Shown here one piece after another: positions 9,600 to 29,979 of a stretch of DNA of 32,791 nucleotides (position 1 is its first letter; each line of letters begins with the position of its first letter). The position numbers and the translations under genes are program-made. The notes under the pieces are model-generated. The model was not told the DNA's origin, made no database searches, and saw nothing but the letters and a program-made list of their open reading frames with translations. The stretch spans positions 1-32,791 of the forward strand of contig CAIYTF010000154.1 of NCBI GenBank assembly GCA_903929035.1, given 5' to 3'. This DNA is from an uncultured Ignavibacteriales bacterium. GTDB taxonomy: Bacteria > Bacteroidota > Ignavibacteria > Ignavibacteriales > Ignavibacteriaceae.

Positions 9600-11528
9600 A
9601 TGAATAAAATTGACCTGCTGAAAAAACTAAATAATCTTTCCGAACTATCTTCGGACGAGCGGATATATCTCCTTAACCTCGTGAATACGCACACAAAATA
9701 CGGTCTCGTGTGGGAAGATAAACCCGAGGATATGGAAGAATTACTGAGGCAAAATCTTCCCGTGTTAAAAGAAGCGGCTGAAAAAGCCATTATAAATGGT
9801 GATAATCATCCGAATCATATTCTCATCGAGGGCGATAATCTTCACGCGTTAACATCCCTTTCTTTTACCCACGAAAAGAAAATTGATGCAATCTATATTG
9901 ATCCGCCCTATAATACGGGTAAAAAAGCTAATGGTAAAACGGATTTTAAATATAATGATGAATACGTGGATCGGGATGATGGATATAGACATTCTAAATG
10001 GTTATCCTTTATGGGTAAGAGATTGAGGCTGTGTAAAAACTTGTTGACTAATAGAGGCATTGTTTTTATATCCATTGACGATAATGAAGTCGCGCAACTT
10101 AAAATGCTATGTGACGAAATTTTTGGGGGTGTCAATATGATCGCTGTTCTTCCAACAATTATGAATTTAAAAGGGAATCAAGATCAGTTCGGGTTCGCGG
10201 GAACACACGAATATACTTTAGTGTATTCAAACAAAAAAGAAAATTGCGTAATCGAGAATTTCGATCTTGATGAAGAAGATTCAAACTCTTGGGAAGAAGA
10301 TTATTTGGGCGTTTATAAAAAAGGTGCTAATCTAAAGGCTACCGGAGTAAATGCGCCTCGCGAAAAAAGACCAAATCTTTACTATCCAATTCTAGTAAAT
10401 TTCAACAAAGAAATATTCACGATATCCGATGATGAATATGAATTAATATATGATAAAAATACGAAATCATTTAATGATAAATACGTTCGGGAATTATGCG
10501 ATAATTATAAGAAAAAAGGATTCAAATGTTTACTTCCTCATACCAATAATGAATTTATGTCTTGGCGTTGGAGTTTGGGAAAAGTCAAAAATGAAAAAGA
10601 CAATATAATTGTTGTTGGTGATTTGTTGGAATTATCGGTTTACAAAAAACAACGACCTGAAATTGGAGAGTTGCCAAGTAAAAAACCAAAAACTTTGTTT
10701 TATAAACCTGAATATAGTAGTGGTAATGGAACGGCACAATTGGTGAGCATTTTTGGAAGTAAAGTGTTTAACAATCCCAAACCAGCGGAATTAATAAAAG
10801 ATTTTTTCAAAATATCAACCCAAAATAACTCGATTATTTTAGATTTTTTCGCCGGTTCCGGCACCACGCTGCACGCGGCGATGCAATTAAACGCTGAAGA
10901 CGGCGGGAACAGGCAATGTATCTTAGTCACAAATAACGAGAACAATATCTGCGAGGAAGTCACCTACGAAAGAAATAAAAGAGTAATCCAAGGATACAAA
11001 AATTCCAAAGGAGAAAATGTTGAAGGTCTCGCGCGAAACAATCTGCGGTACTACAAGACGGAATTTGTTCCAAGCGAGAAAACGGAAATTAATCGCAGAC
11101 GGCTAACCAACGATTGTACCGAGATTTTACAAATTAAAGAAGATTGTTACAACGATATAACCGATCGCGAAGGCTTTGACAGGAGAAAATGTCGCGTAAG
11201 CTCGAACAGGCACGGAAAATATCTAATAATTGTATTTTATAGCAGGGAACAAAAAACAACAACCGAAAAACTTCGCGAGTATATCGCGGGGCTTACCGAT
11301 CTATCCGAAAAAATCCGCGTTTATTCTTTCAGTTCCAGCACGGATGTATTGGCGGAAGATTTGTTTGAAGTTGCCGATCAAATCGTAGCGGTGCCTTTGC
11401 CCGATGCAATCTATAACGCGTATAAAGCAACATTCAAAACCATCAAGCTGGATAGAACCAATTTGATGGAAGAATCATCCGACTATGGAGAAAACGATTC
11501 GTTCAGCGAACTTCGGGAAGACGAATAA
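9600..11528 (+). CDS. Type III-like DNA methyltransferase (Mod)
   Basis: An amino-methyltransferase (N6-adenine or N4-cytosine) of the beta order: motif IV DPPYNTG (101-107) precedes motif I FAGSGTT (about 415-421). The preceding GDNLHAL and the following KWLSFMGKRLRL and FISIDDNEVAQL are typical of type III Mod proteins. The stretch of about 190 residues between the motifs holds the target-recognition part. The C-terminal 150 residues are specific to this group. 642 residues, usual for Mod. DPPY could serve N6-adenine methylation, but the base is not certain. It is the first of five genes with 3-4 bp gaps, on the opposite strand to the housekeeping genes. Confidence 0.92.
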   Translation: MNKIDLLKKLNNLSELSSDERIYLLNLVNTHTKYGLVWEDKPEDMEELLRQNLPVLKEAAEKAIINGDNHPNHILIEGDNLHALTSLSFTHEKKIDAIYIDPPYNTGKKANGKTDFKYNDEYVDRDDGYRHSKWLSFMGKRLRLCKNLLTNRGIVFISIDDNEVAQLKMLCDEIFGGVNMIAVLPTIMNLKGNQDQFGFAGTHEYTLVYSNKKENCVIENFDLDEEDSNSWEEDYLGVYKKGANLKATGVNAPREKRPNLYYPILVNFNKEIFTISDDEYELIYDKNTKSFNDKYVRELCDNYKKKGFKCLLPHTNNEFMSWRWSLGKVKNEKDNIIVVGDLLELSVYKKQRPEIGELPSKKPKTLFYKPEYSSGNGTAQLVSIFGSKVFNNPKPAELIKDFFKISTQNNSIILDFFAGSGTTLHAAMQLNAEDGGNRQCILVTNNENNICEEVTYERNKRVIQGYKNSKGENVEGLARNNLRYYKTEFVPSEKTEINRRRLTNDCTEILQIKEDCYNDITDREGFDRRKCRVSSNRHGKYLIIVFYSREQKTTTEKLREYIAGLTDLSEKIRVYSFSSSTDVLAEDLFEVADQIVAVPLPDAIYNAYKATFKTIKLDRTNLMEESSDYGENDSFSELREDE

Positions 11529-11531
11529 CCA

Positions 11532-13877
11532 ATGCCAATATTAAAAGACTACCAAGAAAAAGCGGTAACTCGCCTTTTGGATTATACCTGCGATGCTCTC
11601 GGACTGCCCGATCGCCGAATACAGATGGTTTTGAAAGCTCCAACAGGTGCCGGGAAAACGGTGACGATGGCGGCATATCTATCGCGATTAATACAGGAAG
11701 TAACTCTGCGACCGAATCTTCCCCGCGACATTGCTATCATCTGGATAGCCCCAAACACGCTGCACCTTCAAAGCTATCACTCTTTGAAAGGATTCTATAG
11801 CGAATTGAATGATTTGAAAACTGTGCAAATAAATGACTTGAGCGGTAACGTGGAATTGCGGCCAAAAGATTTATTGTTCATCAATTGGAGCAGCGTTGAT
11901 AAGGAAAAAAACACTTTCAGAAAAGAAAATGAACGAAGTTTCAATCTTGAAACTCTTATTCTGAATACCCGCCTGCAAAACATTGAAATAATCGCGGTAA
12001 TAGATGAGGCTCATTTATCTGCTTTTACCGGAGAACAAGCCAAAAATGTTTTGAAACTGATTGACGCTAAAATAGAAATATCCGTTACCGCCACTCCACT
12101 TCATATTCCCGATAGAAACGTGGTAATCCAAAGGCAAGAGGTGGTTGCATCCCAAATGATTAAAAAAGGCGTTCGCCTGAATGTAGATTTATCTGAAGAA
12201 GAACAAAAAGGTTTGTCTTTGGATTTGCACTTATTGCAAAAAGCGATGAGTAAAAGGCAAGAGGCAGCGGACGCTTACGAGGCGGCGGGCATAAATATAA
12301 ATCCGCTGTTGTTGGTTCAATTACCTTCGGAAAAAGCAACGCTGACGGACGAAGACAGAACTAAACGGAAAATAATAGAAGAGCATCTTGAAAGCGAATT
12401 TGGAATAACGACCCGAAACAACCTGTTGGCGATTTGGCTATCTGACAGTTCCGATAAAATAAATCTATATAACTTGGAACATCCCGCCGCGATGCAAAGA
12501 GTGCTTATTTTCAAACAGGCAATTTCTCAGGGGTGGGATTGTCCGCGCGCTGCGGTGTTGATTATTTTCAGGGAAATCGGCAACCCCACTTTCGGCATTC
12601 AGACGGTGGGAAGAATACTCCGTATGCCTGAACAAAAACATTATTCCGATGATTTTCTCAATTATGGCTATGTTTATACCAATCTTCAAAACAGCGTGAT
12701 TCGTTTCTTGCCGGATAATGAGGACTATTTCAGCAAACAGAGAGCAGTATTCAAAAAAGGACTCTCTAACCATCAATTGCAATCTTCATACATTGTTAAC
12801 GATAGACCTAGCCTCGGTTTTCTATCGAGTGATTTTCTTAGAATTTTTAATCATACCGTTGAAAGTTTATACGAAATATCCGAAATACCGGAAGCACATC
12901 TTTTTAATTCGATTGAAGAAGCGGAAATAAAGGCGATTACTGAAAAAAACAGGAAAGAATTCGCGGCTAAATTTTGGGATTTGCAAGTGGAGGAAATCGA
13001 AATTTCAATCCCTAAAGATATTTATGTTGATGCTTACGATGTGAATACTATTCTTGTTAACAACGACAAGATCGGACATTTTTCCAAAACGCAGGCAGAA
13101 CTCAACGAGATGCTCGAAAGGTTTTGTTATGATTCCGTTTCAGTATTAAATAAATCGAAAAGCTGGAAACTACTGAAAAGAACCTTGATTGAATTCGTTG
13201 AATATTATATGTCGTATGATGAATTTACCGCCCGTAAAATTTTGCTGCACGCGCCAAATCAGAAGCTGTTAACCGAGATAATCACCATTTCTCTGGAGAA
13301 CTACGACAAATGGCAAAAAGAAAAAGGGGATAAAAACCGGCGTGAAGAAACCTCCGTTTGGCAGGTGCCGGAAGAGCGATTTTATTCGGAAATATTTCAT
13401 AGGCAAGAGAAAATTAAATTTCACGCCCTTGAACCGTTTTTTGAGTTTAATAATGCTTCAACCCCGGAGAAAATATTTCAAAAATTGCTCGAAGATAATT
13501 ACCGCGAATTGGAATGGTGGTATAAAAACGGCGATAAAGGCAGAGAACATTTCGCTGTTTCTTACACGAACTCGGCGAATGAATTGTCTCTCTTTTTTGT
13601 TGATTTTATAGTAAAATTTTCAGCGGACACTTTCGGCTTATTTGATACTAAAACAAAGGGTTCTGACCCCGAAGCAAGCCGTAAACATAACGCGCTGCTC
13701 GACTATATCGCCAATATTAATAAACGAAATCCCGATAGAAGTTTGATTGGCGGAATATTAATTCCGGAATCGAAAGGGAATGATATTCTTTTTAGATATT
13801 GCCGCGACAAAATTGAAAACACGAGCGATCTCACGGGGTGGGATTATTTCAATCCATCAGTAATTAATAAGAGGTAA
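11532..13877 (+). CDS. Type III-like restriction helicase-nuclease (Res)
   Basis: An SF2 ATPase with a C-terminal nuclease. Helicase motifs: APTGAGKT (36-43), DEAH in VIDEAHLSAF (about 156-165), VTATP (about 184-189), and motif VI TVGRILRMP (about 358-366). Near the C-terminus FFVDFIVKF (from 688) followed by FDTKTKG (about 704-710) fits a PD-(D/E)xK nuclease core with Asp, Asp-Thr-Lys. At 781 residues it is somewhat shorter than classic type III Res (about 900-1000). It starts 3 bases after the mod stop. In type III systems Res and Mod form one complex that cuts after ATP-driven translocation. The presence of SMC- and HerA-like partners suggests it works in a larger machine. Confidence 0.9.
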   Translation: MPILKDYQEKAVTRLLDYTCDALGLPDRRIQMVLKAPTGAGKTVTMAAYLSRLIQEVTLRPNLPRDIAIIWIAPNTLHLQSYHSLKGFYSELNDLKTVQINDLSGNVELRPKDLLFINWSSVDKEKNTFRKENERSFNLETLILNTRLQNIEIIAVIDEAHLSAFTGEQAKNVLKLIDAKIEISVTATPLHIPDRNVVIQRQEVVASQMIKKGVRLNVDLSEEEQKGLSLDLHLLQKAMSKRQEAADAYEAAGININPLLLVQLPSEKATLTDEDRTKRKIIEEHLESEFGITTRNNLLAIWLSDSSDKINLYNLEHPAAMQRVLIFKQAISQGWDCPRAAVLIIFREIGNPTFGIQTVGRILRMPEQKHYSDDFLNYGYVYTNLQNSVIRFLPDNEDYFSKQRAVFKKGLSNHQLQSSYIVNDRPSLGFLSSDFLRIFNHTVESLYEISEIPEAHLFNSIEEAEIKAITEKNRKEFAAKFWDLQVEEIEISIPKDIYVDAYDVNTILVNNDKIGHFSKTQAELNEMLERFCYDSVSVLNKSKSWKLLKRTLIEFVEYYMSYDEFTARKILLHAPNQKLLTEIITISLENYDKWQKEKGDKNRREETSVWQVPEERFYSEIFHRQEKIKFHALEPFFEFNNASTPEKIFQKLLEDNYRELEWWYKNGDKGREHFAVSYTNSANELSLFFVDFIVKFSADTFGLFDTKTKGSDPEASRKHNALLDYIANINKRNPDRSLIGGILIPESKGNDILFRYCRDKIENTSDLTGWDYFNPSVINKR

Positions 13878-13881
13878 CACT

Positions 13882-14100
13882 ATGGCAAAAAAAGGACTCG
13901 ACTCGAGTTTCCTGCACTATGGTATTCGTAAAGATGATTTAAGGCTCATCGAAACCATCTGTATAGAACATAAATTGGATTTTAATTGGGTTCAGGAAGA
14001 ATTACTGAAAGAATACCACGAGAAAAAAATCCGTGATCAATACCTTGAAGACAAGGCAATCGAAAAAGTAATTGAAAAAGCAATCTCAAAAATCAAGTAA
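13882..14100 (+). CDS. Small conserved-looking protein of the defence cassette
   Basis: 72 residues, highly charged, mostly helical by eye. The first half (SFLHYGIRKDDLRLIETICIEHKLDFNWVQEELLKEY) reads like a compact helical adaptor; the second half is a Lys/Glu helix. It sits 4 bases after res and 3 bases before the SMC-like gene, so it is a genuine member. I recall small proteins of this size being annotated as associated with DNA modification systems in databases, but cannot confirm the match here. No catalytic motif; an adaptor between Mod-Res and the ATPases is a guess. Confidence 0.8.
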   Translation: MAKKGLDSSFLHYGIRKDDLRLIETICIEHKLDFNWVQEELLKEYHEKKIRDQYLEDKAIEKVIEKAISKIK

Positions 14101-14103
14101 ACT

Positions 14104-16104
14104 ATGTTAATAAATCGAATCATCGCGACAAATTTTAAGACCTACCTCAATCTGGATTTGGATATTTCCGTTGAGGAAGATAAGCCGATAATACTAATAG
14201 GCGGCGAGAACGGGGGCGGCAAAACGACCCTGTTTGAAGCAATCTATGGCGCACTCTATGGCTTGAATATTAGTTCACCAAGGCAGTTCAGAGAATTACT
14301 TAACGCGGGGATACTTGATACAAAGGGCAGTAAAATTATTTTGGAACTTCACTTCTCGGGGCAGGTGCTGAATGAAGTAAAAAAATATGTATTAACCCGG
14401 ACATATATGCTGAACTCTTTCGGAAATCCCGCCGAAAATGTGAAATTGAATATGAACGGTGATGTATTCAAGTATGGAACCGTCACACCGCCGGCGCAGC
14501 GCGCGGAACAAGAAGCGCAAGTCAACAAAATAATTAAAGCGAATTTACCGCAAGAGTTAAGCCGCTATTTTCTGTTTGATGCTATGGAAGCGGGGAATCT
14601 CCTCAAAGAAGACCAATTGAATCGTGTAATAAAAGAGAATATCGAAAATGTAATGGGGTTTAATAAGTATATGCAGTTAGCTGCTGCATCTGAAAATTTG
14701 TTTCAAGAATACACGGCGCAGCGTCTGAAGATTGAAAACGAGAAAACCGAATATACAAAGTTGATTGAAGAAAAAAAGAAATTGGATGCCGCGATTAAAA
14801 GCATACAATCGGGATATGATGTTGCTCTTCAATATTCGGCAGCAAATCGCGAACTGTTTCAAAATATGAAGTCCGGATTGAATCAAGAAACGACTATCAA
14901 CAATAAAATAGAACAAGCCAAATTACAGGTTGAAAATATTTTACAGAAAGAAAATTTGTTCAGGGGCGAATTGGAAGATTTTATTAAAAACATCGAGTTG
15001 TATGTATGCGTTCCAAAGTTGGTTGACGCTATTCGCGCGGAAGTGAATCTTGTTCTGAAAGAAAAAAATGAAAACAGGCGGCAAGCCAATCTAAATATAC
15101 CGCCCGAGCAGGTTGAAGCGATCGGCAATTTAATTCTCGAATTTTTAAAAGAAAATAATCCGGAGCTAAAAGATATTGCTATCGGCGATTTGGTGGATTA
15201 TGTATTGGCTTCCGCTAATAATTCAATCACAACGGACGAGTATGCAGCTTTAGAATATTCCGATGTCAAAGTTCTTGAAGAATTTCTTGCACGAAAAACC
15301 ATTAACCCGTTTCCCCGGTTATCTAAAAAGCAACTCGAATTAGGTATGGATTTCGAGCAAATTCCCGGTTTACAGGGAGAAATAGAGCAAATGAAGTCTC
15401 GAATATCCGGAAATAATTATGAAATTATAAGGGATTATGAAGAGAACGAGAAGAATATAAAAAAATTACTATTGGCGTTGGAGGATGAGAAAGCCGCTCT
15501 TCAAAAAGTCGAAAAACGTTTGCATCAATTCGATATTCAGACAAGCAGGGAACACGACTTGAAGTATGACACTCTCGCGAAACTAAAAATGTTTTTTGAA
15601 GATGTGGCAAATCAATTGTTAACTGCAAAGAAGCAGACAATAGAATTGAAAATGAAGGAAGACCTTAATATCAATTTAACCGCTTATCGAGATGTAATTG
15701 ATAGAGTGGAGCTGTCTGAAAATCTTTCAAATTTGACATTTAAACTCTTTCATACTGCAGGTAATGAAATTTATTTGAACCAGTTAAACACCGCGTCCAA
15801 ACAAATCGTGGTGCAGGTGCTGCTAAAAGCACTGCACGAATTTGGAGATTATGATCCTCCCGTGATGATTGATACAGTTATGGGCGTTCTTGATGAAGCA
15901 AGCAGAGCAAGCGTGTTAGAAAACTATTTTCCGGAGTTGTCCCATCAAACTCTTTTGCTTAGTTCCGATAGTGAAATTAGAGTTGATAAGGATTTTGATA
16001 AAATCGGCACGAACATTTCGAAATGTTACACCTTAAAAAGGGATAGAGAAAAACAATTAACTGAAATAGTTTCCGGTTATTTCGGCAAACATTTAGGAGA
16101 GTAA
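14104..16104 (+). CDS. DndD/SMC-like ATPase
   Basis: 666 residues. The N-terminal Walker A is GGENGGGKTT (33-42) after the RecF/Rad50-type start INRIIATNFKTY. A long helical, coiled-coil middle (about 180-530) is followed by a C-terminal half of the ATPase with Walker B in PVMIDTVMGVLDEASR (586-601) and LLLSSDSEI. The pattern IDT..G.LD followed by R..V.ENYFP.LSHQ..LLSSD is close to DndD of phosphorothioation systems. The ABC signature normally before Walker B is weak (LNTASKQIVVQ), unlike LSGGE. There is no Rad50-type CxxC hook. Likely a DNA-sensing or remodelling ATPase; DndD itself is only one possible relative. Confidence 0.85.
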   Translation: MLINRIIATNFKTYLNLDLDISVEEDKPIILIGGENGGGKTTLFEAIYGALYGLNISSPRQFRELLNAGILDTKGSKIILELHFSGQVLNEVKKYVLTRTYMLNSFGNPAENVKLNMNGDVFKYGTVTPPAQRAEQEAQVNKIIKANLPQELSRYFLFDAMEAGNLLKEDQLNRVIKENIENVMGFNKYMQLAAASENLFQEYTAQRLKIENEKTEYTKLIEEKKKLDAAIKSIQSGYDVALQYSAANRELFQNMKSGLNQETTINNKIEQAKLQVENILQKENLFRGELEDFIKNIELYVCVPKLVDAIRAEVNLVLKEKNENRRQANLNIPPEQVEAIGNLILEFLKENNPELKDIAIGDLVDYVLASANNSITTDEYAALEYSDVKVLEEFLARKTINPFPRLSKKQLELGMDFEQIPGLQGEIEQMKSRISGNNYEIIRDYEENEKNIKKLLLALEDEKAALQKVEKRLHQFDIQTSREHDLKYDTLAKLKMFFEDVANQLLTAKKQTIELKMKEDLNINLTAYRDVIDRVELSENLSNLTFKLFHTAGNEIYLNQLNTASKQIVVQVLLKALHEFGDYDPPVMIDTVMGVLDEASRASVLENYFPELSHQTLLLSSDSEIRVDKDFDKIGTNISKCYTLKRDREKQLTEIVSGYFGKHLGE

Positions 16105-16107
16105 AAT

Positions 16108-17697
16108 ATGAGTATTAATAATATCCAGCACATCAAACAATCCAATGATCTAAATGAAATTCTTGGCGAACTAAAACAAAGAATCGAACAAAAAATAAAT
16201 CTGAAGCAATACAGTGAAAATAATACTCCGATTCTTTTAGGCAATAATAAAGTGACGCGTATCTGTTTGCTGGCGGGCTTATCGACCGAACATAAAAGGA
16301 CTATGGAAGAAATCGAGCAAATACATTTAAGTCCATCACGTATCTCTGAAATGTTATTCACGCTCCATAATTTAAGTGCCTTCTTTTTTGCTCTGATTAA
16401 TCTTCGCTATCGGCATTTACCGATTGATTGGCAGAATAATTCTTTGAAAAGCAAGGTGGTTAACGCGGAAATCTTAAGAGGGAATGAACTCCTAATGAAA
16501 GACTCCGTGTTGGATGATTGGTTGATGAATGCGCCGAACATCGGGTATGGAAAATATTCCGGAACAATTCCGATGCTTGAATTAAATATCGGCAGTTATG
16601 AAGACGATATTCTGGCTGCTATTAATCTGAATCGAAAAGACATTTCAAATACCCAGATACTTATCGCGGGTGCCACAGGTTCGGGGAAATCGAATCTCAT
16701 TGCCGTATTGCTTAATGAAATTAGAGTATTATCGATAGAAAGTGCTTATCCGGTAAACTTCCTTTTATTCGATTACAAAGGTGAATTTTCCGACATTTCC
16801 AATAATGCATGGCTCGCGTACTTTGAAGTTGATCGCGGCGCGATATTTGACCCAATTAAGCAGCCGCTTCCGTTTACCCCTTTCAAAGATTTTACAGGTA
16901 AAACACAGAACGAAATCAATCTATACTCAACGGAATTGGCAATTGCATTATGTGCTATTGACAGGGCGAGCATTAGCGCGAATATGAACAATAAACTATC
17001 GGAAGCAATTATCGGCGCATATAAACGCAGCCTCAACAAGCCTATAACATTCGACCTTATTCTGCAAGAATACACTTTTTTGCAATTGGAAAGAGACAAA
17101 TTCAAAGACGACAGTGTAAAATCTGTACTCAAGCAATTAATTCGGGCTAACCTATTCATAGCAGAAGACAAAGTCGATTTAATCAAGAGCAGCTTTATCG
17201 TGAAAATGGATGCTTTTCCTAAAGATGGTCCAATCGCGAAAGCGATTGTTTACTTCATCGTGTCAAAACTAAACACGATATATGAAAACTTGCCAAAACA
17301 ATTAGTTGATGAGGAATGCGCGGAACTCCGTCACTTCACGATCATAGACGAGGCTCATTATATGCTTGGATTCGACAACAAGCCGCTCCGAGACTTGATT
17401 GCAGTAGGCAGAAACAAAGGATTAAGCATTATACTTGCCACTCAAAATATGGACAGCTACAAGAGTGAATACTTTGATTTTTATGCCAACGCTCAATACC
17501 CGTTAATAATGAAACAACAGTCAATGAATGACGGAGTAATCAAAGACTTGTTTGGAGTATCCGGTGCAGAATTTCAAGAAATTAAATCCGCCATTTCCGG
17601 ACTTCAAAAAGGCGAGTTAATCATAAAGAACCCAACAGCTATCTCACTTGGAATGGGCAAGAAGTTCAAAAAAATCAAGATTAACCATTTAATCTAA
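16108..17697 (+). CDS. HerA/FtsK-like ATPase of the defence cassette
   Basis: 529 residues. Walker A is LIAGATGSGKSNL (from about 185), then FLLFDYKGEFSD, and a Walker B HFTIIDEAHYMLG (about 409-421), then AVGRNKGLSIILATQ with the Arg-finger region. This is the HerA/VirB4 style of hexameric DNA translocase, as in DndH/DptH-type and other defence ATPases. The N-terminal 150 residues lack the HAS-barrel look of HerA; a stretch NNKVTRICLLAGLS recalls the DndE fold, but this is only an impression. Last gene of the cassette, 3 bases after the SMC-like gene; 38 bases separate it from adk. Confidence 0.87.
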   Translation: MSINNIQHIKQSNDLNEILGELKQRIEQKINLKQYSENNTPILLGNNKVTRICLLAGLSTEHKRTMEEIEQIHLSPSRISEMLFTLHNLSAFFFALINLRYRHLPIDWQNNSLKSKVVNAEILRGNELLMKDSVLDDWLMNAPNIGYGKYSGTIPMLELNIGSYEDDILAAINLNRKDISNTQILIAGATGSGKSNLIAVLLNEIRVLSIESAYPVNFLLFDYKGEFSDISNNAWLAYFEVDRGAIFDPIKQPLPFTPFKDFTGKTQNEINLYSTELAIALCAIDRASISANMNNKLSEAIIGAYKRSLNKPITFDLILQEYTFLQLERDKFKDDSVKSVLKQLIRANLFIAEDKVDLIKSSFIVKMDAFPKDGPIAKAIVYFIVSKLNTIYENLPKQLVDEECAELRHFTIIDEAHYMLGFDNKPLRDLIAVGRNKGLSIILATQNMDSYKSEYFDFYANAQYPLIMKQQSMNDGVIKDLFGVSGAEFQEIKSAISGLQKGELIIKNPTAISLGMGKKFKKIKINHLI

Positions 17698-17735: not shown

Positions 17736-18905
17736 ATGTTAAACATTGCTTTATTTGGTCCCCCCGGCGCCGGCAAAGGAACTCAATCAGAGTTCCTTAT
17801 CAAGAAATATAATCTATATTATATATCAACCGGCGGTTTGCTGAGAAAAGAGCTTGCCGATAAATCTAAACTTGGTTTAGAAGCGCAGAGCATCATTGCT
17901 TCCGGCGGCCTGGTTTCCGATGAAATAATCGTGCAGATTATGGAAAAAACAATTACTGAAAATCCGGATGCAAACGGGTTCCTGTTTGACGGATTCCCGC
18001 GTACTTATATTCAAGCCTACATTCTCGAAGGACTGATGATAAAACTCAATACATCTCTCACCTGTCTGATAAGCCTCAATGTGCCCGAAGAAGAATCCGT
18101 TTCGAGGCTATTAAAACGCGGCGAAACTTCCGGTCGTTTGGATGATAATGAAACCGTTATAAGAAATCGGCTGAAAGAATATAATGAAAAGACACTACCC
18201 GTGCTCGAGTTTTATAAAGAACGCGGTATGTTTTTTGAAGTAAATGGTCTGGATACAATAGAAAATGTTAACTTTGAAATTACAAAAATCATTAAGCATC
18301 AGTTACGCAACAAACTATTCAATATTGTGTTATTTGGGTATCCGGGTTCAGGACGCGGATCTCAAGGCAAATCCTTAGCAAAGAAATTTGAACTTGAATA
18401 CGTTGCCACGGGTCCTATGTTGGATAAAGAGATTGCCCAAGGCACTCCTATCGGCAACAAAATCAGGGTACTTTATGAAAACGGGCAGTTAGTGCCGGAT
18501 GAGATAGTTGTTCAATTAATTGAAAAGAAACTTATTAACTCCAAAGATGTAAAAGGATTTATCTTTAAGGGGTTCCCGCGAACTTTGGTTCAATCTTATA
18601 TACTTGATGGTTTGCTTAAAAAACACGGTGCCTCCATTTCCAAAATTATTGAAATTGAAGTTCCTCCTTTAGAATTAATTTCACGATTAGATGAACGGAG
18701 CAAAACCGAGAATTGTATGCCTTATGACAACAGCACCTCAAAAATAGTGAAGAGGCTGCAAGAACACGAAACAAAAACTGTTCCTGTTATTACAAAATAT
18801 AATCAATTGCACGAAGTTATAAAGATAAACGGGATGGGTCCTTTTGATGAAGTTTTCGCGAGAATTTCTTTTGAAATTGAAACAGGGATTCGATTGATGC
18901 GATAG
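17736..18905 (+). CDS. adk: Tandem adenylate kinase (active plus degenerate domain)
   Basis: Two adenylate-kinase domains in one 389-residue chain. The first has a perfect P-loop GPPGAGKGT (8-16), FDGFPRT (about 84-90) and a short-LID block RGETSGRLDDN with the catalytic Arg, so it should convert ATP + AMP to 2 ADP. The second starts at about residue 195; its P-loop is GYPGSGRGS (201-209) with the key Lys replaced by Arg, and the LID Arg block is lost (DERSKTENCMPYDN), although KGFPRT remains. The second domain is probably inactive and structural or regulatory. The gene lies between the defence cassette and tRNA-Arg on the same strand. Confidence 0.92.
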   Translation: MLNIALFGPPGAGKGTQSEFLIKKYNLYYISTGGLLRKELADKSKLGLEAQSIIASGGLVSDEIIVQIMEKTITENPDANGFLFDGFPRTYIQAYILEGLMIKLNTSLTCLISLNVPEEESVSRLLKRGETSGRLDDNETVIRNRLKEYNEKTLPVLEFYKERGMFFEVNGLDTIENVNFEITKIIKHQLRNKLFNIVLFGYPGSGRGSQGKSLAKKFELEYVATGPMLDKEIAQGTPIGNKIRVLYENGQLVPDEIVVQLIEKKLINSKDVKGFIFKGFPRTLVQSYILDGLLKKHGASISKIIEIEVPPLELISRLDERSKTENCMPYDNSTSKIVKRLQEHETKTVPVITKYNQLHEVIKINGMGPFDEVFARISFEIETGIRLMR

Positions 18906-18996: not shown

Positions 18997-19070
18997 GCAC
19001 CCGTAGCTCAATTGGATAGAGCGTTTGACTACGGATCAAAAGGTTGAGGGTTCGACTCCTTCCGGGTGTA
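18997..19070 (+). tRNA. tRNA-Arg (ACG)
   Basis: A 74-nt cloverleaf: acceptor GCACCCG with CGGGTGT (closing G-U pair), D arm GCTC/GAGC, anticodon stem TTTGA/TCAAA with loop CTACGGA (anticodon ACG, read as ICG), T arm with GTTCGAC, discriminator A. CCA is not encoded. Sequence around the anticodon and T arm is the usual target for phage integrases, and phage-type genes begin about 110 bases downstream. Confidence 0.95.
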
Positions 19071-19131
19071 CATTTTTATTTTTTTAGCCTTGTAACTACA
19101 TATAATATAAATAGTTAATTTTAACCGCTAA

Positions 19132-19149
19132 AAATAGTGCAGACTATTT
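19132..19149 (-). terminator. Weak terminator after the terminase gene
   Basis: AAATAGT and ACTATTT (7 bp) with a 4-nt loop; the minus-strand reading continues with more U. AT-rich and weak, but well placed 28 bases after the large-terminase stop. Confidence 0.45.
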
Positions 19150-19177
19150 GCAAAGTTTTGAGGTTTTCCTGCCTAAA

Positions 19178-20560
19178 TTAGTATTCGTACGTCTTCTTAA
19201 TATACTTTTTTAGTTTGTCGTAATTTGCCTTTGATAACTGTAATTCCTTTATAATCTTCTCGTCTATTTCATTTTCTGACGCTTCCTCTTTTAGAAAGCG
19301 ATATTTTAATTCCATAAAAGCGTCACTTAGTTTTATAAGATTATCAAAATCCATATTATCGGGGTTTTGTTCAGCGAATTCCGTCACGTATTTCAAATGT
19401 GTATGTATCCCGTAGCGAATCGCGTCCATTGTATGATCTTTAAATTTAATCGGTTCTTCAAGTATGTTGCCATCCTTGTCTTTCCTGTAAGCATAGCCTA
19501 AGACCTCGTTGTTTATGTTCGTATTATTTGGATTACTATATATTTTCTGACGTTTCACGTGATCAATACCATCCTTAACGCTCTTATCTGCCGGTAATAC
19601 CATAAATCCCGCGTTATGTATTTCCTGTATTCTCTGCGGCTCCGCTGCATCAGCATAAATTGGATGGTTCTTCGATATTTCCAAGTCTTTTAGTTTCTGT
19701 ATTAGTTCCGTGTTGGTCAGCCTTGTTTGATATAACGATTCTGTCAAATAAAACTCATTCTCCCGCCTGTCAATTCTTATTAAAGCTGTCGGATTAACAA
19801 AACCGAAATCAAGTCCATAAAACGTGTCGGTAAAAAACTTCGGATAATTATTTATTATCGGGAACGGCTTATATATTAACTCTGCCAACTGGCCCCAAAG
19901 TCCTAAAGCATACACGTTGTAATAATTCTCGTCCTGTTCAGCCAAGCTTTCGAGCACGCCCGCGTATTCAGCATCAAGTTTCATATTATCTTTATATGTT
20001 GTCTTTAGAACAGTTGACTTATTTTTTATATCAGTGCTCGGGTTGGAGAAGAAGTGCTTGTATAACCAGTTTTGACTGCTTACAGGATTAAAGGTTAGCA
20101 TAATTTGTTTATGATGCTTTGTCTGTCCTCTTAATCGTATATCAAGCTGCATAAAATCCTCTTTACGAAGTTCTGTTGCTTCTTCAACCCAAATAGATGT
20201 AATACCGTGTATGGATTTAATCTTCTCCGGATCATCCATACCCGCTGTTACAATCTCGTTGCCATTTGCTTTGAATTTAATCGACATTTCCGTCTTGTTA
20301 AATTCAAACTTGTGATATATTCCCCACGACAAAATAACATCGCGGAGCAGCGCGTAACAACTTCCCCTGATGGTACGCGCTATCTTCCTGACGACTAATA
20401 TTTTATGTCCCTTCTCTGTTATAATTCGTATAAGCTGCTTTTGAGCCGTGAAATAACTTTTCCCGCTCCCGCCGCCGCCGTAGAGAACTTCATACCTGTT
20501 GATATTACTCAGCAGCTGGAAATATACAGGGTTAATCTCGTTCTTTAGATTAATTTCCAC
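19178..20560 (-). CDS. terL: Phage terminase large subunit (PBSX/Terminase_3 type)
   Basis: The DNA-packaging motor ATPase and nuclease. 460 residues, full length for the family. Walker A is GGGGSGKS (28-35), then VVRKIARTIRGSCYALL, Walker B in ITSIWVEEATEL (about 139-150), and the coupling motif in LTFNPVSSQNWL. Nuclease domain: FYGLDFGFVNPTAL, IYADAAEPQRI and the distal KDHTMDAIRYG, giving the usual three acidic clusters of an RNase-H fold. The start overlaps the small-subunit stop by 11 bases. Nothing phage-like follows it: the next gene downstream is the tRNA, where a portal gene would be expected. Confidence 0.94.
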   Translation of the reverse strand: MEINLKNEINPVYFQLLSNINRYEVLYGGGGSGKSYFTAQKQLIRIITEKGHKILVVRKIARTIRGSCYALLRDVILSWGIYHKFEFNKTEMSIKFKANGNEIVTAGMDDPEKIKSIHGITSIWVEEATELRKEDFMQLDIRLRGQTKHHKQIMLTFNPVSSQNWLYKHFFSNPSTDIKNKSTVLKTTYKDNMKLDAEYAGVLESLAEQDENYYNVYALGLWGQLAELIYKPFPIINNYPKFFTDTFYGLDFGFVNPTALIRIDRRENEFYLTESLYQTRLTNTELIQKLKDLEISKNHPIYADAAEPQRIQEIHNAGFMVLPADKSVKDGIDHVKRQKIYSNPNNTNINNEVLGYAYRKDKDGNILEEPIKFKDHTMDAIRYGIHTHLKYVTEFAEQNPDNMDFDNLIKLSDAFMELKYRFLKEEASENEIDEKIIKELQLSKANYDKLKKYIKKTYEY

Positions 20561-21125
20561 CGGTAAACGTCACGTCCTCTGCTTCTTCAAATTTGCTGTC
20601 TAAACCTATTTCCTTTATTGCCGCCGTGCTGTCGCCCTGCGGCGCGTACTGAACAAAAGTAATCTTAACTCCTTCGTCCTCTTTCTTGACCTCACCACCT
20701 AAGAGTTCCATATCAAGGCGGATCAGAGTTTCTGCTGCTTTCAGCAAAGCAGTTACGTCTCTTATATTCTCAGGCTGTATTTTTAGAATCATCACTCCTG
20801 TTTTCTTATCAATTTCAATTACGGTATTTACCGCTTTTTTGATAAACGATAGATAATCACGCACTACCACTCTGTATTCCATACGCTGAGCTACAATATC
20901 AGCGTCTGTCTTCTCAGCCATAATTTCAGATATATTATTAATCCGTTCTTGAATAACCTCGCTCCACTTGAACTTCGTCATCCAATTTTGCAGTGTCTTT
21001 GGCTTCCTTTTAGTAATATTTGAAAGTTCTCTTATTGACCTTTTTTCGCCCATCCTATAATAAGTTTCAAAGGCCTCTATCTGTTCAACTGTTTGAGGGT
21101 TTTTAGGTGTTCCTTTTTTTGCCAT
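20550..21125 (-). CDS. terS: Phage terminase small subunit
   Basis: 191 residues. The N-terminal helix-turn-helix (SIRELSNITKRKPKTLQNWMTKFKW) is followed by helical oligomerisation segments (about 60-150) and an acidic C-terminal tail. It recognises the packaging site and regulates the large subunit. The position directly before terL with an 11-base overlap supports the call; the family is too variable for a firm motif. Confidence 0.85.
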   Translation of the reverse strand: MAKKGTPKNPQTVEQIEAFETYYRMGEKRSIRELSNITKRKPKTLQNWMTKFKWSEVIQERINNISEIMAEKTDADIVAQRMEYRVVVRDYLSFIKKAVNTVIEIDKKTGVMILKIQPENIRDVTALLKAAETLIRLDMELLGGEVKKEDEGVKITFVQYAPQGDSTAAIKEIGLDSKFEEAEDVTFTGGN

Positions 21126-21340
21126 TATAATGTAATCCCGTATAAAGAGTTTCCCGTTTGATTATCGCCCGAGCGTTTTTTTATTTTTTTTTCAATATTC
21201 TTTTGTCTTTTCTCAAAAAGTTTTACGTTATGACTACTGTGATGTTCTGTATCACAAATAGCAAACCAATTGTTATCTATAAACGGATTAAAATATTTAT
21301 TTTCCGGTTTTTTCTCTTTTATTTCATCTATGTTTGTCAT
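21125..21340 (-). CDS. Small hypothetical phage protein
   Basis: 71 residues, basic C-terminal half (KRQKNIEKKIKKRS). It starts 4 bases inside the thyX end and its stop shares one base with the terS start, so it is packed as a real operon gene. ICDTEHHSSHN recalls short His-rich HNH-like patches, but too few conserved residues are present to claim a nuclease. Function unknown. Confidence 0.55.
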   Translation of the reverse strand: MTNIDEIKEKKPENKYFNPFIDNNWFAICDTEHHSSHNVKLFEKRQKNIEKKIKKRSGDNQTGNSLYGITL

Positions 21341-22002
21341 TCTTTATTCCTATCAAATATTAATGGTAAATTCTCTTTTAAGTAATCTTTGCACATATTA
21401 GCAATTATCTGCATATCAGGATGTGCCGCCTTTGATGTTCTCAAATCAAGTATATGAATCCATTCCCTTAAATTAGCCGTCATAGATATTTCTGTTTTAA
21501 GGCAGTTAGGCAATATTGCACGTGCTTGTTCAGGTTTCCAATTTCTGTAATTAATTAATTCAATATAGGTTTGTTCTATTTCAATTAAAGTTTCAAAAAA
21601 TACTCTATCTTCTATTTTACAATACATAATGGACATTGTATTAACATAATGTCCTTCTTTAATCTCTATATTATGGGGGATTACAAATGTTAGTTGATTT
21701 CCAAATTTATCTTTAGTATAATTAGCATATCTTGTACTTTCAATACTAAAAACTACGCCTGCTCTGTGCCTTGTTAATTCAGCCATTACTCCTCTGTCAG
21801 TTATTATCTTAGCTGATAGAGAGACGTGCTCAAGCACCGATAAATGTCCTTTCTTCATTATCAAATTGATAATTTCCCTGTAACTATCACCGGTTATATA
21901 TTCCTCTGATTTGTAACAAGTACGAGCGTGTTTTTCTAACTTCTTGTATATTTGTTCCGAATTAAACGGTTCAAATGCTACTGATGGGTTTATTAATATC
22001 AT
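21337..22002 (-). CDS. thyX: Flavin-dependent thymidylate synthase
   Basis: Makes dTMP from dUMP using methylene-THF, NADPH and FAD. 221 residues. The ThyX signature is present as RHRAGVVFSIESTRY (78-92), with HLSVLEHVS upstream (FAD-contacting) and KPEQARAILPNCLKTE and the conserved Arg (DLRTSKAAHPDMQ) downstream. A phage copy raises dTMP supply for replication. It lies in the leftward phage operon, after a 128-base gap with a strong hairpin. Confidence 0.94.
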   Translation of the reverse strand: MILINPSVAFEPFNSEQIYKKLEKHARTCYKSEEYITGDSYREIINLIMKKGHLSVLEHVSLSAKIITDRGVMAELTRHRAGVVFSIESTRYANYTKDKFGNQLTFVIPHNIEIKEGHYVNTMSIMYCKIEDRVFFETLIEIEQTYIELINYRNWKPEQARAILPNCLKTEISMTANLREWIHILDLRTSKAAHPDMQIIANMCKDYLKENLPLIFDRNKE

Positions 22003-22022
22003 TTATTCTTTCTTTTTTAATA

Positions 22023-22050
22023 ATTGCCTCCCCAACCACGAGGAGGCAAT
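22023..22050 (-). promoter_or_regulatory. Hairpin in the thyX leader
   Basis: A perfect 9-bp inverted repeat (ATTGCCTCC / GGAGGCAAT, 10-nt loop) ends 20 bases before the thyX start on the minus strand. Upstream, smaller hairpins (GCAG...CTGC near 22085-22105 and TCCCT/AGGGA near 22117-22130) are also possible. No U-tract follows, so a terminator is unlikely; an RNA-stability or translation-control element is plausible. The 128-base gap has no gene. Confidence 0.5.
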
Positions 22051-22130
22051 ACGTATGAATTATTTTTTCCTAACCACTCAAATTGCAGACCTTTCTTTCT
22101 GCTTTGTTATTTGTTTCCCTTTATAGGGAG

Positions 22131-22811
22131 TTATTTAATACACTTTTCCGTGTAAATGTTCTCTTGTTTAATTGAATTAAAAATACTATAAGCAATTTCC
22201 CACATTATGGTATTGCCAAGTGATTTTATTCTGTTGTTCCTGTGTTTTGCGTGCGTAAGTCCGTCCAACCTTCCGGTATGTGCATCATCCACTCCACAAA
22301 GTCGGGTTGCAGCTTCAATCCAACTTTCTGCGTTATATCCGGGACCGCGTCCGAATGTCTGGTATTGTTTAGATTCGTACATCCAATCCAATCCCTCGCT
22401 TTCGGAGTTGGCAGTAAACCCACCATCGCCTGTAAATTCAGCATCCCTTGACCTGTCCGCTCCCTTCTCGCTAATATCGTTTTCATTGATTCTGTACTCT
22501 CGTTCGCTCTCGGAGTTGGCAGCATCTTTGGCAATATTGTATCCGATAATCCATATTTTCTTCCCGCAAAATGGGCAATACACGAAGTATCCCCATTTGT
22601 TTATTATCGAATAGCCGGAGTTTTTCTGTGCTATAAATTCAGGACAGCCCGGTCTATAATTAATCGAGTTACCTCTGATCTCCTGCCATTCGCATTTGTC
22701 CGTCTTGATTCTGTGCTTATAATACTGTTCCATTAATTCAGGAATATTATCTTGGTCAAGGACATAGTTTTCTTCATCATCCTGCAAATTATATAATTCG
22801 TCCGCGTTCAT
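22131..22811 (-). CDS. Zinc-ribbon protein with cytosine-methylase-like C-terminus
   Basis: 226 residues. The N-terminal part is a phage-style zinc patch (CEW at about 39, RPGC at about 54, CPFCGKKIW at about 79-87). The end, RLCGVDDAHTGRLDGLTHAKHRNNRIKSLGNTIMWEIAYSIF, closely resembles the C-terminal end (motif X region) of Dcm-type C5-cytosine methylases of phages. The catalytic PCQ loop and SAM motifs are absent, so it cannot methylate alone. The same DNA in another frame (22534-22226) also encodes methylase-like blocks, LPTPRANES, LLPTPKARDW and DFVEWMMHIPEGWTDL, another recognisable phage Dcm-associated form. Either an overlapping gene or the trace of an old frameshift. Confidence 0.7.
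   Translation of the reverse strand: MNADELYNLQDDEENYVLDQDNIPELMEQYYKHRIKTDKCEWQEIRGNSINYRPGCPEFIAQKNSGYSIINKWGYFVYCPFCGKKIWIIGYNIAKDAANSESEREYRINENDISEKGADRSRDAEFTGDGGFTANSESEGLDWMYESKQYQTFGRGPGYNAESWIEAATRLCGVDDAHTGRLDGLTHAKHRNNRIKSLGNTIMWEIAYSIFNSIKQENIYTEKCIK
22226..22534 (-). CDS. Overlapping frame with phage Dcm-type LPTP/EWMMGFP motifs
   Basis: 102 residues in a different frame inside the 226-residue gene. It holds MLPTPRANES, then NLQAMVGLLPTPKARDW, then LKLQPDFVEWMMHIPEGWTDL; this series (repeated LPTP-ARD blocks then EWMMGFP-GWTDL) is typical of C-terminal parts of phage cytosine methylases. The ATG is inside the other gene and has no obvious SD, so translation is not established. 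Reported because the family match is too good for a chance shadow frame. Confidence 0.4.
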   Translation of the reverse strand: MPKMLPTPRANESTESMKTILARRERTGQGMLNLQAMVGLLPTPKARDWIGCTNLNNTRHSDAVPDITQKVGLKLQPDFVEWMMHIPEGWTDLRTQNTGTTE

Positions 22812-23137
22812 CTTCTCACCTCCTGCACTATCAAAGGCTCAACCCAATAAACGTTAATCTCCTTTAATAAGTCAGGGCTATTGCCCTCAAAGTCAGAGTA
22901 AAATTCATTACCGCCTCTTGCCCTCCATATAATCCCGCCTAAGTTATCAATATCATCTTTTTGTATATGCACACATTGAACTTCACCGTGCGTAAATGAG
23001 TGAGCGTGGTCGCCTAGTTGTACTCTTTCAAAATCGTGATCTGCCGGCATTAGCTTAACTTCTTTGAATGTATATGCTAATTCACTCATAGAACTCTTCG
23101 TCCCGTATCTTGCTTTTTCAATTGCTATCGTTGTCAT
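22808..23137 (-). CDS. Hypothetical phage protein
   Basis: 109 residues, soluble, no motif I recognise. Sequence such as HAHSFTHGEVQCVHIQKDDIDNLGGIIWRARGG looks like a beta-rich small domain. It overlaps the next gene by 4 bases (coupled translation) and begins 8 bases after the VRR-NUC gene, so it belongs to the replication/packaging operon. Function unknown. Confidence 0.65.
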   Translation of the reverse strand: MTTIAIEKARYGTKSSMSELAYTFKEVKLMPADHDFERVQLGDHAHSFTHGEVQCVHIQKDDIDNLGGIIWRARGGNEFYSDFEGNSPDLLKEINVYWVEPLIVQEVRR

Positions 23138-23145
23138 TTTAGTTT

Positions 23146-23442
23146 TTACCTTCTTTTAGATTTTTTTACTAGTTCTAAAATCATTTCTTTAAATGATTCA
23201 TAATTATCTATAACGCTGGCTATGCCGCCTGATTTTATTATCTGTTGTAAATTTTTTTCCTGCAATAATGTTGCTTTAGCTCCTTCTCTCTTGAACTCTA
23301 CTGCAACGAACGAGCCGTCTATGCTCATTCTTAAATCCGGTAATCCCGATCTGCTGCCAAGCACGAGCTTCTCCGCGTATATGTTCGGGTATTCCTGCTT
23401 TAGGTACTTCAGGCATTTTGCCTGCAACTTCGATTCTAACAC
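23146..23442 (-). CDS. VRR-NUC domain nuclease
   Basis: A small PD-(D/E)xK nuclease (VRR-NUC), which in phages usually partners SNF2/DEAD helicases and acts on branched DNA. Motifs: ESKLQAKCLKYLKQ start, then SRSGLPDLRMSIDGSFVAVEFKREGAKATLLQ (Asp in PDL and E-x-K in VEFK), then the helix with LQEKNLQQI. The open frame extends to an ATG at 23532, but I prefer the GTG at 23442: it has an SD-like AAAGGA 8 bases upstream and begins where the domain begins. It overlaps the helicase gene end by 167 bases. About 98 residues, typical of the family. Confidence 0.88.
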   Translation of the reverse strand: MLESKLQAKCLKYLKQEYPNIYAEKLVLGSRSGLPDLRMSIDGSFVAVEFKREGAKATLLQEKNLQQIIKSGGIASVIDNYESFKEMILELVKKSKRR

Positions 23443-24670
23443 TTTCGTAATCCTTTCTGAAATAATATGTCGTGTAATCTTTCTTATCTTGAACTGCTTT
23501 ATATATTTTGTCTTCAATACCGCCTTTTGCAAATATCCAATGCGCGGCAGCTTCAGTCGTTCTGTTCTTATCCTGCATCCGTGCCCTTGCCTGCCAATAG
23601 AGTAACGAGCTATGCGATATGTTGTAGAATATTATAATATCCGCTGTTGATAGGTTTACGCCCATACTGCCTGACTGTATTTGTGATATAAACACTGTAT
23701 CAGTATTAGCATTAAATATTCGCGGGCTATTTGTCCAATCCTTAAAGGTTGCTTTTAGTAAATCGCCCTCAGCTATAAAATTATAATAAATACCAATCTT
23801 GCGTCCTTTATAATTATTCTTTATAAATACCGCTTTTGAATCATCAAGTATTATTTGTTTACCGGTTTCCGTTTTTACCGTACCGCTAAAAAGCTGGTGC
23901 ACTTTGCTCATCTTCTTCGCGGCTGTATCGATAACAACTTCTTCATTGCCTATTAGCAGTATTTGGTCGCTTAACAAGGTTTTTATCTTGTTATAAGTTT
24001 CAGGCTTCATTTGAACGTATCGTACAAACTCAATTACTTCTTGGTTAAAGCCCGCTTGCGATTGCGTGAATGATATTAAGTACGGTTTAATATCCGGTTC
24101 AATCTTGTGCATCTTCACTTTACTATAATTTTTAACAAGCCATCCGTTTATTATCCGTTCCGTTACATACACGTAATCCTTTGCCCACTCGTAAAAGTTC
24201 CTGTATTCACTCCAAGGGGAATAGACTCCCGATATACTGAACTGGTGAAAGAGCTGTGAATAACTCTCAGGTGTCGGTGTACCGGATAAGAATATTACTC
24301 TTGCCGCTCCGGTTTTCATCCACAAAATAGCCGCGCGTTTGCTCGGCTTCGGGAATGCTCCCAAACTATGCGCTTCGTCCGCGATAACGAGATCAAAAGT
24401 TTGTTTTTTTACCTTGTGCAGGCTTTCATAATTTATGACCGTCATCTTGAAAGGCTTCTTGATCATCTCGAAATCCTTTTCAATTGAGCTGATCGCCATC
24501 AGCTTTGTAACGAACAGGACATTCTCCGCTTTAACAAGATAGGCGGCAGTAAGTGCCGTTAGCGTCTTACCTGTCCTGACCTCCATCGCGAGGTAACACA
24601 TCCCTTTTTCTTTCAAAAGCTTGGCAGCCTGTCGGGCAATCTGCTCTTGGTAGTCTCTCAGTATGCCCAT
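23276..24670 (-). CDS. SNF2-type phage helicase
   Basis: 464 residues. Walker A is MEVRTGKTLTAL (about 29-40), DEAH at 98-101 (VIADEAHSLG), motif III LSGTPTPES (about 121-129), and the C-terminal RecA-like lobe with GVNLSTADIIIFYN and motif VI YWQARARMQDKNR. Typical of phage replication modules, often with a VRR-NUC gene next door, as here. The last 55 or so codons (after about residue 409) overlap VRR-NUC in another frame and look unlike helicase, so the helicase may end functionally before that. No known partner other than the neighbouring nuclease and the prim-pol gene upstream. Confidence 0.9.
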   Translation of the reverse strand: MGILRDYQEQIARQAAKLLKEKGMCYLAMEVRTGKTLTALTAAYLVKAENVLFVTKLMAISSIEKDFEMIKKPFKMTVINYESLHKVKKQTFDLVIADEAHSLGAFPKPSKRAAILWMKTGAARVIFLSGTPTPESYSQLFHQFSISGVYSPWSEYRNFYEWAKDYVYVTERIINGWLVKNYSKVKMHKIEPDIKPYLISFTQSQAGFNQEVIEFVRYVQMKPETYNKIKTLLSDQILLIGNEEVVIDTAAKKMSKVHQLFSGTVKTETGKQIILDDSKAVFIKNNYKGRKIGIYYNFIAEGDLLKATFKDWTNSPRIFNANTDTVFISQIQSGSMGVNLSTADIIIFYNISHSSLLYWQARARMQDKNRTTEAAAHWIFAKGGIEDKIYKAVQDKKDYTTYYFRKDYESVRIEVAGKMPEVPKAGIPEHIRGEARAWQQIGITGFKNEHRRLVRCSRVQERRS

Positions 24671-24785
24671 TTGTTGTCTCTTATTGAGAAATGACGTCTC
24701 ATATTAATACAATTTTTGAATAATGTGATAATTGGAGCAAATGTGGACAGTTGTGGACAGATGAAGTGTCCTTTTCTTAGAAATC

Positions 24786-24894
24786 GTAACATATTATTAT
24801 ATATAGCGTTATAGCCACAGGGGAAAAAATGGACAGATGGTGGACAGATGAAAAAGGGCTTTTTTGAACGATGTAACATATTATTATATATAGC
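24786..24894. repeat. 22-bp AT-rich direct repeat, two copies
   Basis: 24786-24807 and 24873-24894 are identical (GTAACATATTATTATATATA then GC), each about 25-40 bases after a pair of GGACAG boxes, so the left arm is built from a duplicated unit too. Confidence 0.88.
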
Positions 24895-24907
24895 TTTTCT
24901 ACCTTTT

Positions 24908-25050
24908 TTTGGACAGTTGGACAGTAAAACCGAGTGCATACACCCCCCACGTATACAGTATATATATATCCCCATACTCTCTCTCCCCCTTATATTTATA
25001 TTACTTTCCCCTAAACCTATATATGTAAAAAAACTGTCCAACTGTCCAAA
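24908..25050. repeat. 18-bp perfect inverted repeat (paired GGACAG boxes) flanking the core
   Basis: 24908-24925 (TTTGGACAGTTGGACAGT) is the exact reverse complement of 25033-25050. Each arm holds two boxes 8 bases apart. The 107 bases between contain the AT/pyrimidine core. Too wide for a simple protein operator; fits two facing initiator-binding arms. Confidence 0.85.
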
Positions 25051-25137
25051 TTGGCACTTAACTAATTGAATTATAATGAGTTGATTAATCGAAAAACAAC
25101 TGTCCAAATGAAAAAACAACTGTCCAAAAAGGGGTAT

Positions 25138-25258
25138 CAACTGTCCAAATTGGCACTTAACTCTATATATAATAGGGTTTTGTAGATTCTGCTTGTTTTT
25201 GCATACCAACTGTCCAAATTGGCACTTAACTCTATATATAATAGGGTTTTGTAGATTC
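25138..25258. repeat. 52-bp direct repeat, two copies
   Basis: 25138-25189 and 25207-25258 are identical over 52 bases (period 69). Each has a CTGTCC box, then AAATTGGCACTTAACT and an AT-rich stretch with TATATATAATAGGG. A third copy of only the first 22 bases lies at 25042-25063. Confidence 0.92.
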
Positions 25259-25294
25259 CGCGTAAATTGAGCGAATACCTCGCGAACGTGCATA

Positions 25295-28117: not shown

Positions 28118-28139
28118 AGCTATCTTTCTATAATTGAAA

Positions 28140-28178: not shown

Positions 28179-28190
28179 GTAAATAATTAA

Positions 28191-28598: not shown

Positions 28599-28599
28599 T

Positions 28600-29977: not shown

Positions 29978-29979
29978 TC

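Follow-up and report, generated by a model that had tools for sequence, protein, structure and literature searches.

A type III Mod-Res pair in a conserved five-gene cassette with a DndD-like ATPase and a predicted DndE-HerA protein

Background

Whether DndD and DndE have a role beyond helping sulfur installation is a question in Dnd research, and the locus described here poses it in a sulfur-free setting, in which both proteins stand alongside a defined nuclease and a base modification that can be read out: what does a Dnd-type module do beside a type III restriction-modification (R-M) pair? The locus lies in an uncultured Ignavibacteriales bacterium (GenBank assembly GCA_903929035.1, contig CAIYTF010000154.1, positions 1–32,791 of the forward strand; this whole stretch of 32,791 nucleotides is henceforth called the window). 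Five plus-strand open reading frames (ORFs) fill positions 9600–17697 with gaps of 3, 4, 3, and 3 bp, exactly where a single five-gene cassette with 3–4 bp gaps had been placed by an original prediction made from the sequence letters. In this order, they encode a DNA methyltransferase (Mod), a helicase-nuclease (Res), a small protein (Sp), a DndD-like ATPase, and a predicted fusion of a DndE-fold domain to a HerA motor. We give about even credence to the reading that they form a dedicated R-M system, in which the type III Mod-Res pair is joined to a DndD/DndE scanning and HerA-pumping module. The parts are known; what appears to be new is that a single conserved system combines the two kinds.

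The Dnd-type module

The fifth gene (529 amino acids (aa); 16108–17697, plus strand) had been described as a HerA-style ATPase, which holds for its C-terminal HerA/FtsK translocase domain of the DndH type (residues 148–529; 16549–17697). The PADLOC match to DndH (E-value 3.9e-24) extends over residues 175–508 and covers only about positions 1360–1700 of DndH, and the HerA motifs are present as GATGSGKS (Walker A) and IIDEAH (Walker B). In the full-length AlphaFold2 model (predicted local distance difference test (pLDDT) 85.7), this domain aligns with the DndH C-domain of 7es4 at Z 38.4 and a root-mean-square deviation (rmsd) of 2.4 over 348 residues, the next unrelated entry reaching Z 27.8. 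Overlooked at the time was the N-terminal domain (residues 1–141; 16108–16530), which was modelled alone (pLDDT 90.0) and runs twice through strand-helix-helix, i.e., two ribbon-helix-helix units. When this model was searched with Foldseek, the 13 best matches were all DndE chains, with E-values only from 0.036 upwards, and structural alignment with DndE (4lrv) gave Z 10.6 and an rmsd of 2.5 over 104 of 107 residues. The runner-up fold, at Z about 7, was that of the F-plasmid relaxosome, in agreement with the likeness between DndE and TraY reported by Rakesh et al. (PMC10853773). The DndE assignment is further supported by the distant homologues L089, L090, L102, and L103, which carry a recognisable DndE domain in the same position ahead of HerA.

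The fourth gene (666 aa; 14104–16104, plus strand) encodes an ATP-binding cassette (ABC) ATPase with a coiled-coil insert, for which the best PADLOC match was DndD (6.2e-55), followed by PbeC (7.9e-47). Against TIGR03185 it reached an E-value of 4.1e-49, yet its 167.6 bits lie under the curated cut-off of 245.85. Its Walker B/D-loop reads IDT..G.LD, and in a tree with phosphorothioation (PT) DndDs and PbeCs it forms its own deep clade, several branches being long and the nearest sister unsure. No CxxC or CxC of a zinc hook was found in gene 4, nor any conserved cysteine in alignment A2; the missing hook rules out membership among the CxC/PbeC proteins. Of the earlier description, an ATPase like the structural maintenance of chromosomes (SMC) proteins with a DndD-style motif, the DndD likeness is retained, while "SMC-like" gives way to a DndD-clade ABC ATPase without zinc hook. 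The third gene (13882–14100, plus strand) encodes the helical protein of 72 aa that had been noticed but left unnamed; with 29.1 bits against a gathering cut-off of 27.2, it falls into the Dnd-linked Sp-DndD family (PF20306), described in Pfam as "Small protein found in certain Dnd DNA modification systems." In the cassette alignments, neither residues F10, G14, D19, W36, and L42 of Sp nor the catalytic residues of DndD and HerA vary, and profile searches gave no recognisable nuclease or toxin domain in Sp, DndD, or DndE-HerA. Taking the structural models into account, the cassette is predicted to hold a full DndD-DndE core together with a HerA motor instead of loose Dnd-like parts. The DndD-like ATPase had been correctly seen, but the description of the module was incomplete. 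The sulfur-transfer genes are absent as proposed: none stands in or beside the cassette, and TIGR03183 found no dndC in the whole genome.

The type III pair

The first gene (642 aa; 9600–11528, plus strand) encodes a type III beta-class N6-adenine DNA methyltransferase (Pfam N6_N4_Mtase, E-value 1.4e-38; PADLOC MTase_III, 1.7e-83). Its motifs DPPYNTG and FAGSGTT stand in beta-class order, with DPPY ahead of FxGxG, and are nearly invariant in the cassette alignment. The central target-recognition domain (about residues 206–399) is variable, with an identity of 0.22 versus 0.54 for the Mod core (1176 cassette pairs). The adjoining Res gene of the operon (781 aa; 11532–13877, plus strand) encodes a superfamily 2 (SF2) helicase with a PD-(D/E)XK nuclease core (Pfam ResIII, 1.1e-15; PADLOC REase_III, 7.2e-14). 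In this core (VDF...FDTKTKG), D691, D705, and K707 are invariant together with the helicase motifs among 20 cassette Res sequences (alignment A3). The type III-like nature of both genes, as originally proposed, is borne out by these profiles and motifs. Two cassettes (L011, 1628–5461, and L012, 1797–5396) carry in tandem a second Mod of different sequence before a single Res, the second copy being broken in L012. Elsewhere in the host genome lies another type III Mod-Res pair, an ordinary one that lacks the ATPase genes (G000:C71, 13–4068; L134).

Conservation across relatives

With gene 5 as the query, 149 relatives were found in 84,980 species genomes; 80 loci were retained, nearly all of them from Bacteroidota (one from Ignavibacteria, one on a contig labelled Alphaproteobacteria). 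Among loci with sufficient upstream DNA, the counts were 73/73 for DndD, 65/66 for Sp, 54/55 for Res, and 49/50 for Mod; the order was Mod-Res-Sp-DndD-DndE/HerA throughout, and most junctions measured no more than 60 bp. The five-gene arrangement is not due to chance, since the same five genes recur in the same order in loci of dozens of other species; Mod-Res pairs clearly do co-occur with the other three genes, as the original prediction had supposed. The sole exception, L056 (9708–11569), has an intact DndE-HerA behind a DndD remnant of 92 aa and lacks Mod and Res, which is taken as decay or misassembly.

Carriers include Phocaeicola coprophilus DSM 18228, Bacteroides nordii WAL 11050, and Segatella copri iA622. 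When 395 genomes were sampled evenly across the phylum, the cassette was found only in the window's own genome, and the other genomes yielded just two distant and two Mod-Res-free HerA relatives; hence, it is widespread but sparse. Among viral contigs, 600 pattern matches contained no relative, and plasmids yielded just one distant match of 25%. An unverified entry of 15.6 kb filed as "Bacteriophage sp." (L136, MT835906.1) holds the whole cassette behind integrase-like and mobilisation relaxase-like genes, and resembles a mobilisable element of Bacteroides rather than a phage. Common linkage to mobile elements was rejected, as in 66 long loci the L136 integrase had no match and the relaxase one. 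Extra genes inside cassettes, either in the Mod-Res gap or before DndD, were observed in L004, L005, L018, L020, L009, L029, L044, L046, L050, L054, L013, and L015; we take them to resemble Abi_2-like, schlafen-like, DUF1016-like nuclease, RhuM-like, and toxin-antitoxin genes.

Evolution of specificity and engine

Across 49 complete cassettes, pairwise distances of Sp, DndD, and DndE-HerA were correlated with r 0.87–0.95 (0.91 for Sp and DndD), those of Res with this trio with r 0.61–0.68, and those of Mod with r 0.33–0.41, or 0.40–0.47 after removing the target domain. Sampled stand-alone type III Res sequences lie outside the cassette Res clade, and sampled stand-alone Mod cores lie outside the cassette Mod clade (support 98), the host's own G000:C71 pair included in both cases. 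A nesting of stand-alone Mods within the cassette Mods, seen in a first FastTree analysis, was discarded because the two separated at that support once the target domain was removed. In 14 cassette pairs, Res is at least 85% identical and DndE-HerA 82–99%, Mod cores are 63–89% identical, and target domains only 16–27%. As near-identical cassettes carry unrelated Mod target domains, Mod appears to be the protein that sets the target sequence. Exchange of specificity seems to take place in Mod, against a constant engine, and DndE is unlikely to determine specificity in this cassette.

The pair of DndD and DndE-HerA was found in at least four settings, i.e., with PT genes, with a helix-turn-helix (HTH) protein and Sp, with Mod-Res and Sp, and alone. 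By sequence resemblance, L102 reads DndC-DndD-DndE/HerA-DndB, and L103 likewise contains PT genes. L089 (3750–9798) and L090 (3688–9522) encode a protein of about 700 aa, Sp-DndD, a DndD-like ATPase, and DndE-HerA, with no methylase; the HTH protein of about 700 aa gave sigma70-region-4 and weak matches resembling the alpha C-terminal domain (alpha-CTD).

Proposed mechanism and alternative explanations

In a dedicated five-gene R-M system, Mod would methylate adenines at its own site and thereby mark host DNA. Sp, the DndD ATPase, and the DndE domain may assemble into a clamp-like complex that loads on DNA without choosing a sequence, and a hexameric HerA ring would translocate the DNA and bring unmethylated sites to the Mod-Res complex. 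The Res nuclease, bound to Mod at such sites, would then cut, and methylated host DNA would be spared by this presumed coupling. The mechanism is supported by the parallel gene order of PbeABCD and by the HerA-capture model of Rakesh et al. (PMC10853773), which point the same way. The proposal in the original prediction that the ATPases sense or translocate foreign DNA is plausible. If the mechanism is true, a second, ATP-driven engine has been added to type III restriction, and judging from the gene content, sulfur chemistry would evidently not be required for the Dnd engine to work. More tentatively, DndD-DndE could be a general platform for DNA scanning and translocation, and the cassette a five-subunit type III complex, in which Mod gives interchangeable specificity and the engine replaces the classical long-range sliding to a second site. 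Since carriers include type and named strains, the role of DndD/DndE could be addressed directly by gene removal and methylome sequencing.

Several points weigh against a dedicated five-gene system. The reading draws on sequence and predicted structures, and the interaction of Res with the ATPases is a presumed one. At the sequence level, the gene 5 N-domain matches DndE only weakly (no match to Pfam DndE; P about 0.003 with hhalign), and the assignment comes from the predicted structure. Furthermore, in genus g63 of the window's class, cassette-clade DndD and DndE-HerA occur without Mod, Res, or Sp alongside, the two genes being adjacent in G410 and at separate chromosomal loci in G284, G276, and G409 (L149, 9718–13445; L142, 7914–9980, with L092, 9767–11497; L143, 6092–8251, with L091, 7718–9469; L150 with L151). 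No other finding argues as strongly for an independent function of the ATPase pair, and DndD/DndE-HerA can therefore have a role without the R-M pair; approximately unbiased (AU) tests of an ancestral versus a secondarily Mod-Res-free state gave p 0.51 and 0.39, neither origin being favoured. In addition, the window's Mod and Res cluster with their counterparts in L020, L025, and L030 (supports 99 and 100), a group that was picked from the Res and Mod trees and is rejected by the HerA tree (p-AU 1.4e-5). By this conflict between trees, the Mod-Res pair has been exchanged as a unit between cassettes, and the fit of the two halves is loose.

Some of these observations favour a rather unlikely alternative, according to which a self-sufficient type III pair and an independent Sp-DndD-DndE/HerA system (e.g., anti-plasmid or acting on DNA topology, like SMC-like defence systems) are neighbours that each help to keep the other. 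The Mod-Res-free genes of g63, the same module with a non-R-M partner in L089 and L090, the exchange of Mod-Res between cassettes, and the weak distance correlation of Mod with the trio (r 0.33–0.41) all speak for such neighbours. Linkage in 49/50 loci for Mod and 54/55 for Res, the fixed order, and the 3–4 bp spacing in the window argue against them, as do the Res distances, which track those of the trio (r 0.61–0.68). Moreover, free association would not yield Mod and Res clades apart from stand-alone pairs, as were recovered here.

Less probable still is that the trio serves modification, with DndD and DndE opening or scanning DNA for methylation by Mod, while Res, like its classical type III counterparts, would act alone. 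In Dnd systems, DndD-DndE belong to the modification machinery as subunits (PMC10853773, PMC12707154). Here, Mod keeps a completely variable target domain of its own next to a nearly constant DndE-HerA, and Res follows the trio more closely than Mod does. Ordinary type III Mods methylate without such helpers.

It is improbable that the trio is a back-up or abortive arm, in which Sp holds DndD/DndE-HerA inactive until inhibition of Mod-Res by a phage frees the complex to damage or clear DNA. Rakesh et al. (PMC10853773) proposed that the small protein in related CxC systems acts as a negative regulator, and some of the genes inserted in cassettes resemble toxin or Abi families. Sp, DndD, and DndE-HerA are however devoid of a recognisable nuclease or toxin domain, and Sp is conserved, has invariant residues, and tracks DndD, unlike a fast-evolving sensor. 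Lastly, an ordinary type III R-M pair by chance beside unrelated ATPase genes is hardly credible. Mod-Res pairs of these families do occur on their own, as at G000:C71 in the host genome, but this explanation is ruled out by the linkage counts and the order kept in dozens of species.

Comparison with known systems

With type III R-M systems of the EcoP15I kind, the cassette shares a beta-class Mod with swappable target domain and an SF2 and PD-(D/E)XK Res in one operon. These are two-gene systems, whereas nearly all relatives of the cassette have the set of five, with three co-conserved genes added, and the cassette Mod and Res fall into separate clades. Krishnan et al. 2020 (10.1093/nar/gkaa726) is reportedly the source cited for DndE-HerA fusions. 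Such a fusion was noted in 2024 by Rakesh et al. (PMC10853773), and Dnd systems with DndE-HerA (clade 3 HerA/FtsK, PMC10853773; here L102 and L103) likewise have a DndD-like ATPase beside it. They possess DndC (and DndB in L102), in contrast to the adenine methylase of the cassette, whose genome has no dndC and whose DndD and HerA form a separate deep clade. The double ribbon-helix-helix DndE of Dnd systems is matched in gene 5 by fold (4lrv, Z 10.6) and missed by Pfam DndE. Of the DndFGH system, the C-terminal HerA motor of DndH (7es4, Z 38.4) is the nearest solved structure to the cassette HerA; DndF, DndG, and the other DndH domains are lacking, and the HerA carries a putative DndE domain instead. 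The L089/L090 module shares the PF20306 Sp, the DndD-like ATPase, and DndE-HerA in the same order, but has neither a methylase nor Res, its fourth protein being a different one.

PbeABCD/CxC systems (PMC6459918, PMC10853773) show a parallel order of helicase-nuclease, small protein, coiled-coil ABC ATPase, and DndE-type protein. PbeA is a helicase with an HKD-type nuclease, whereas Res has a PD-(D/E)XK core; PbeB does not match PF20306, whereas Sp does; PbeC has the CxC zinc hook (C..C in L104 and L108), which the cassette DndD lacks; and PbeD is a DndE without HerA, whereas the cassette DndE would be fused to it. Where methylases are present in PbeABCD/CxC systems, they are cytosine methylases, which replace PT in CxC systems according to Rakesh et al. 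(PMC10853773), whereas that of the cassette is an adenine methylase. The HerA/FtsK capture systems of Rakesh et al. are multi-gene defence operons that recruited a HerA/FtsK domain of a DndH clade; the cassette, whose HerA has the DndH C-domain (7es4) as its closest fold and whose operon is conserved, is a candidate for this group and for a defence role.

The main text passages of Rakesh et al. (PMC10853773) make no mention of a type III Mod-Res partner. In the PubMed Central literature, no description of Mod-Res with DndD and HerA was found, though earlier cataloguing is possible (Krishnan et al. 2020, supplements). The profile search named beforehand as a check gave PADLOC matches to MTase_III, REase_III, DndD, and DndH; in PADLOC-DB 2.0.0, Sp, recognised by Pfam PF20306 only, had no match, and the others matched only generic type III, DndD/PbeC, and DndH/HerA. 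Current defence annotation would therefore report a type III system with some scattered Dnd-like genes and nothing more. A system already named with the same gene order, which the original prediction had allowed for, was thus not found in this database or in the literature searched, with the proviso on earlier cataloguing given above.

Genomic surroundings

The left-hand neighbours of the cassette lie on the minus strand. The next plus-strand gene (17736–18905) begins 38 bp past the cassette and encodes a head-to-tail fusion of two adenylate kinase domains, with a paralogue at G000:C185. Homologues occur in one congener, and a search of more distant relatives gave no strong match. In an empty-site comparison, the gene was found in just this congener (G001:C554), where other genes stand upstream of it; it is outside the five-gene set. 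An integrase beside tRNA-Arg (18997–19071) was considered and rejected, as the gene following the cassette is this double adenylate kinase, and no repeat of the tRNA-Arg end was found in the window. The region from the tRNA-Arg to the end of the window (18997–32791) contains phage-like genes on the minus strand, among them a terminase large subunit at 19178–20560 (PF04466, 7.8e-53), and is possibly a prophage at the tRNA.

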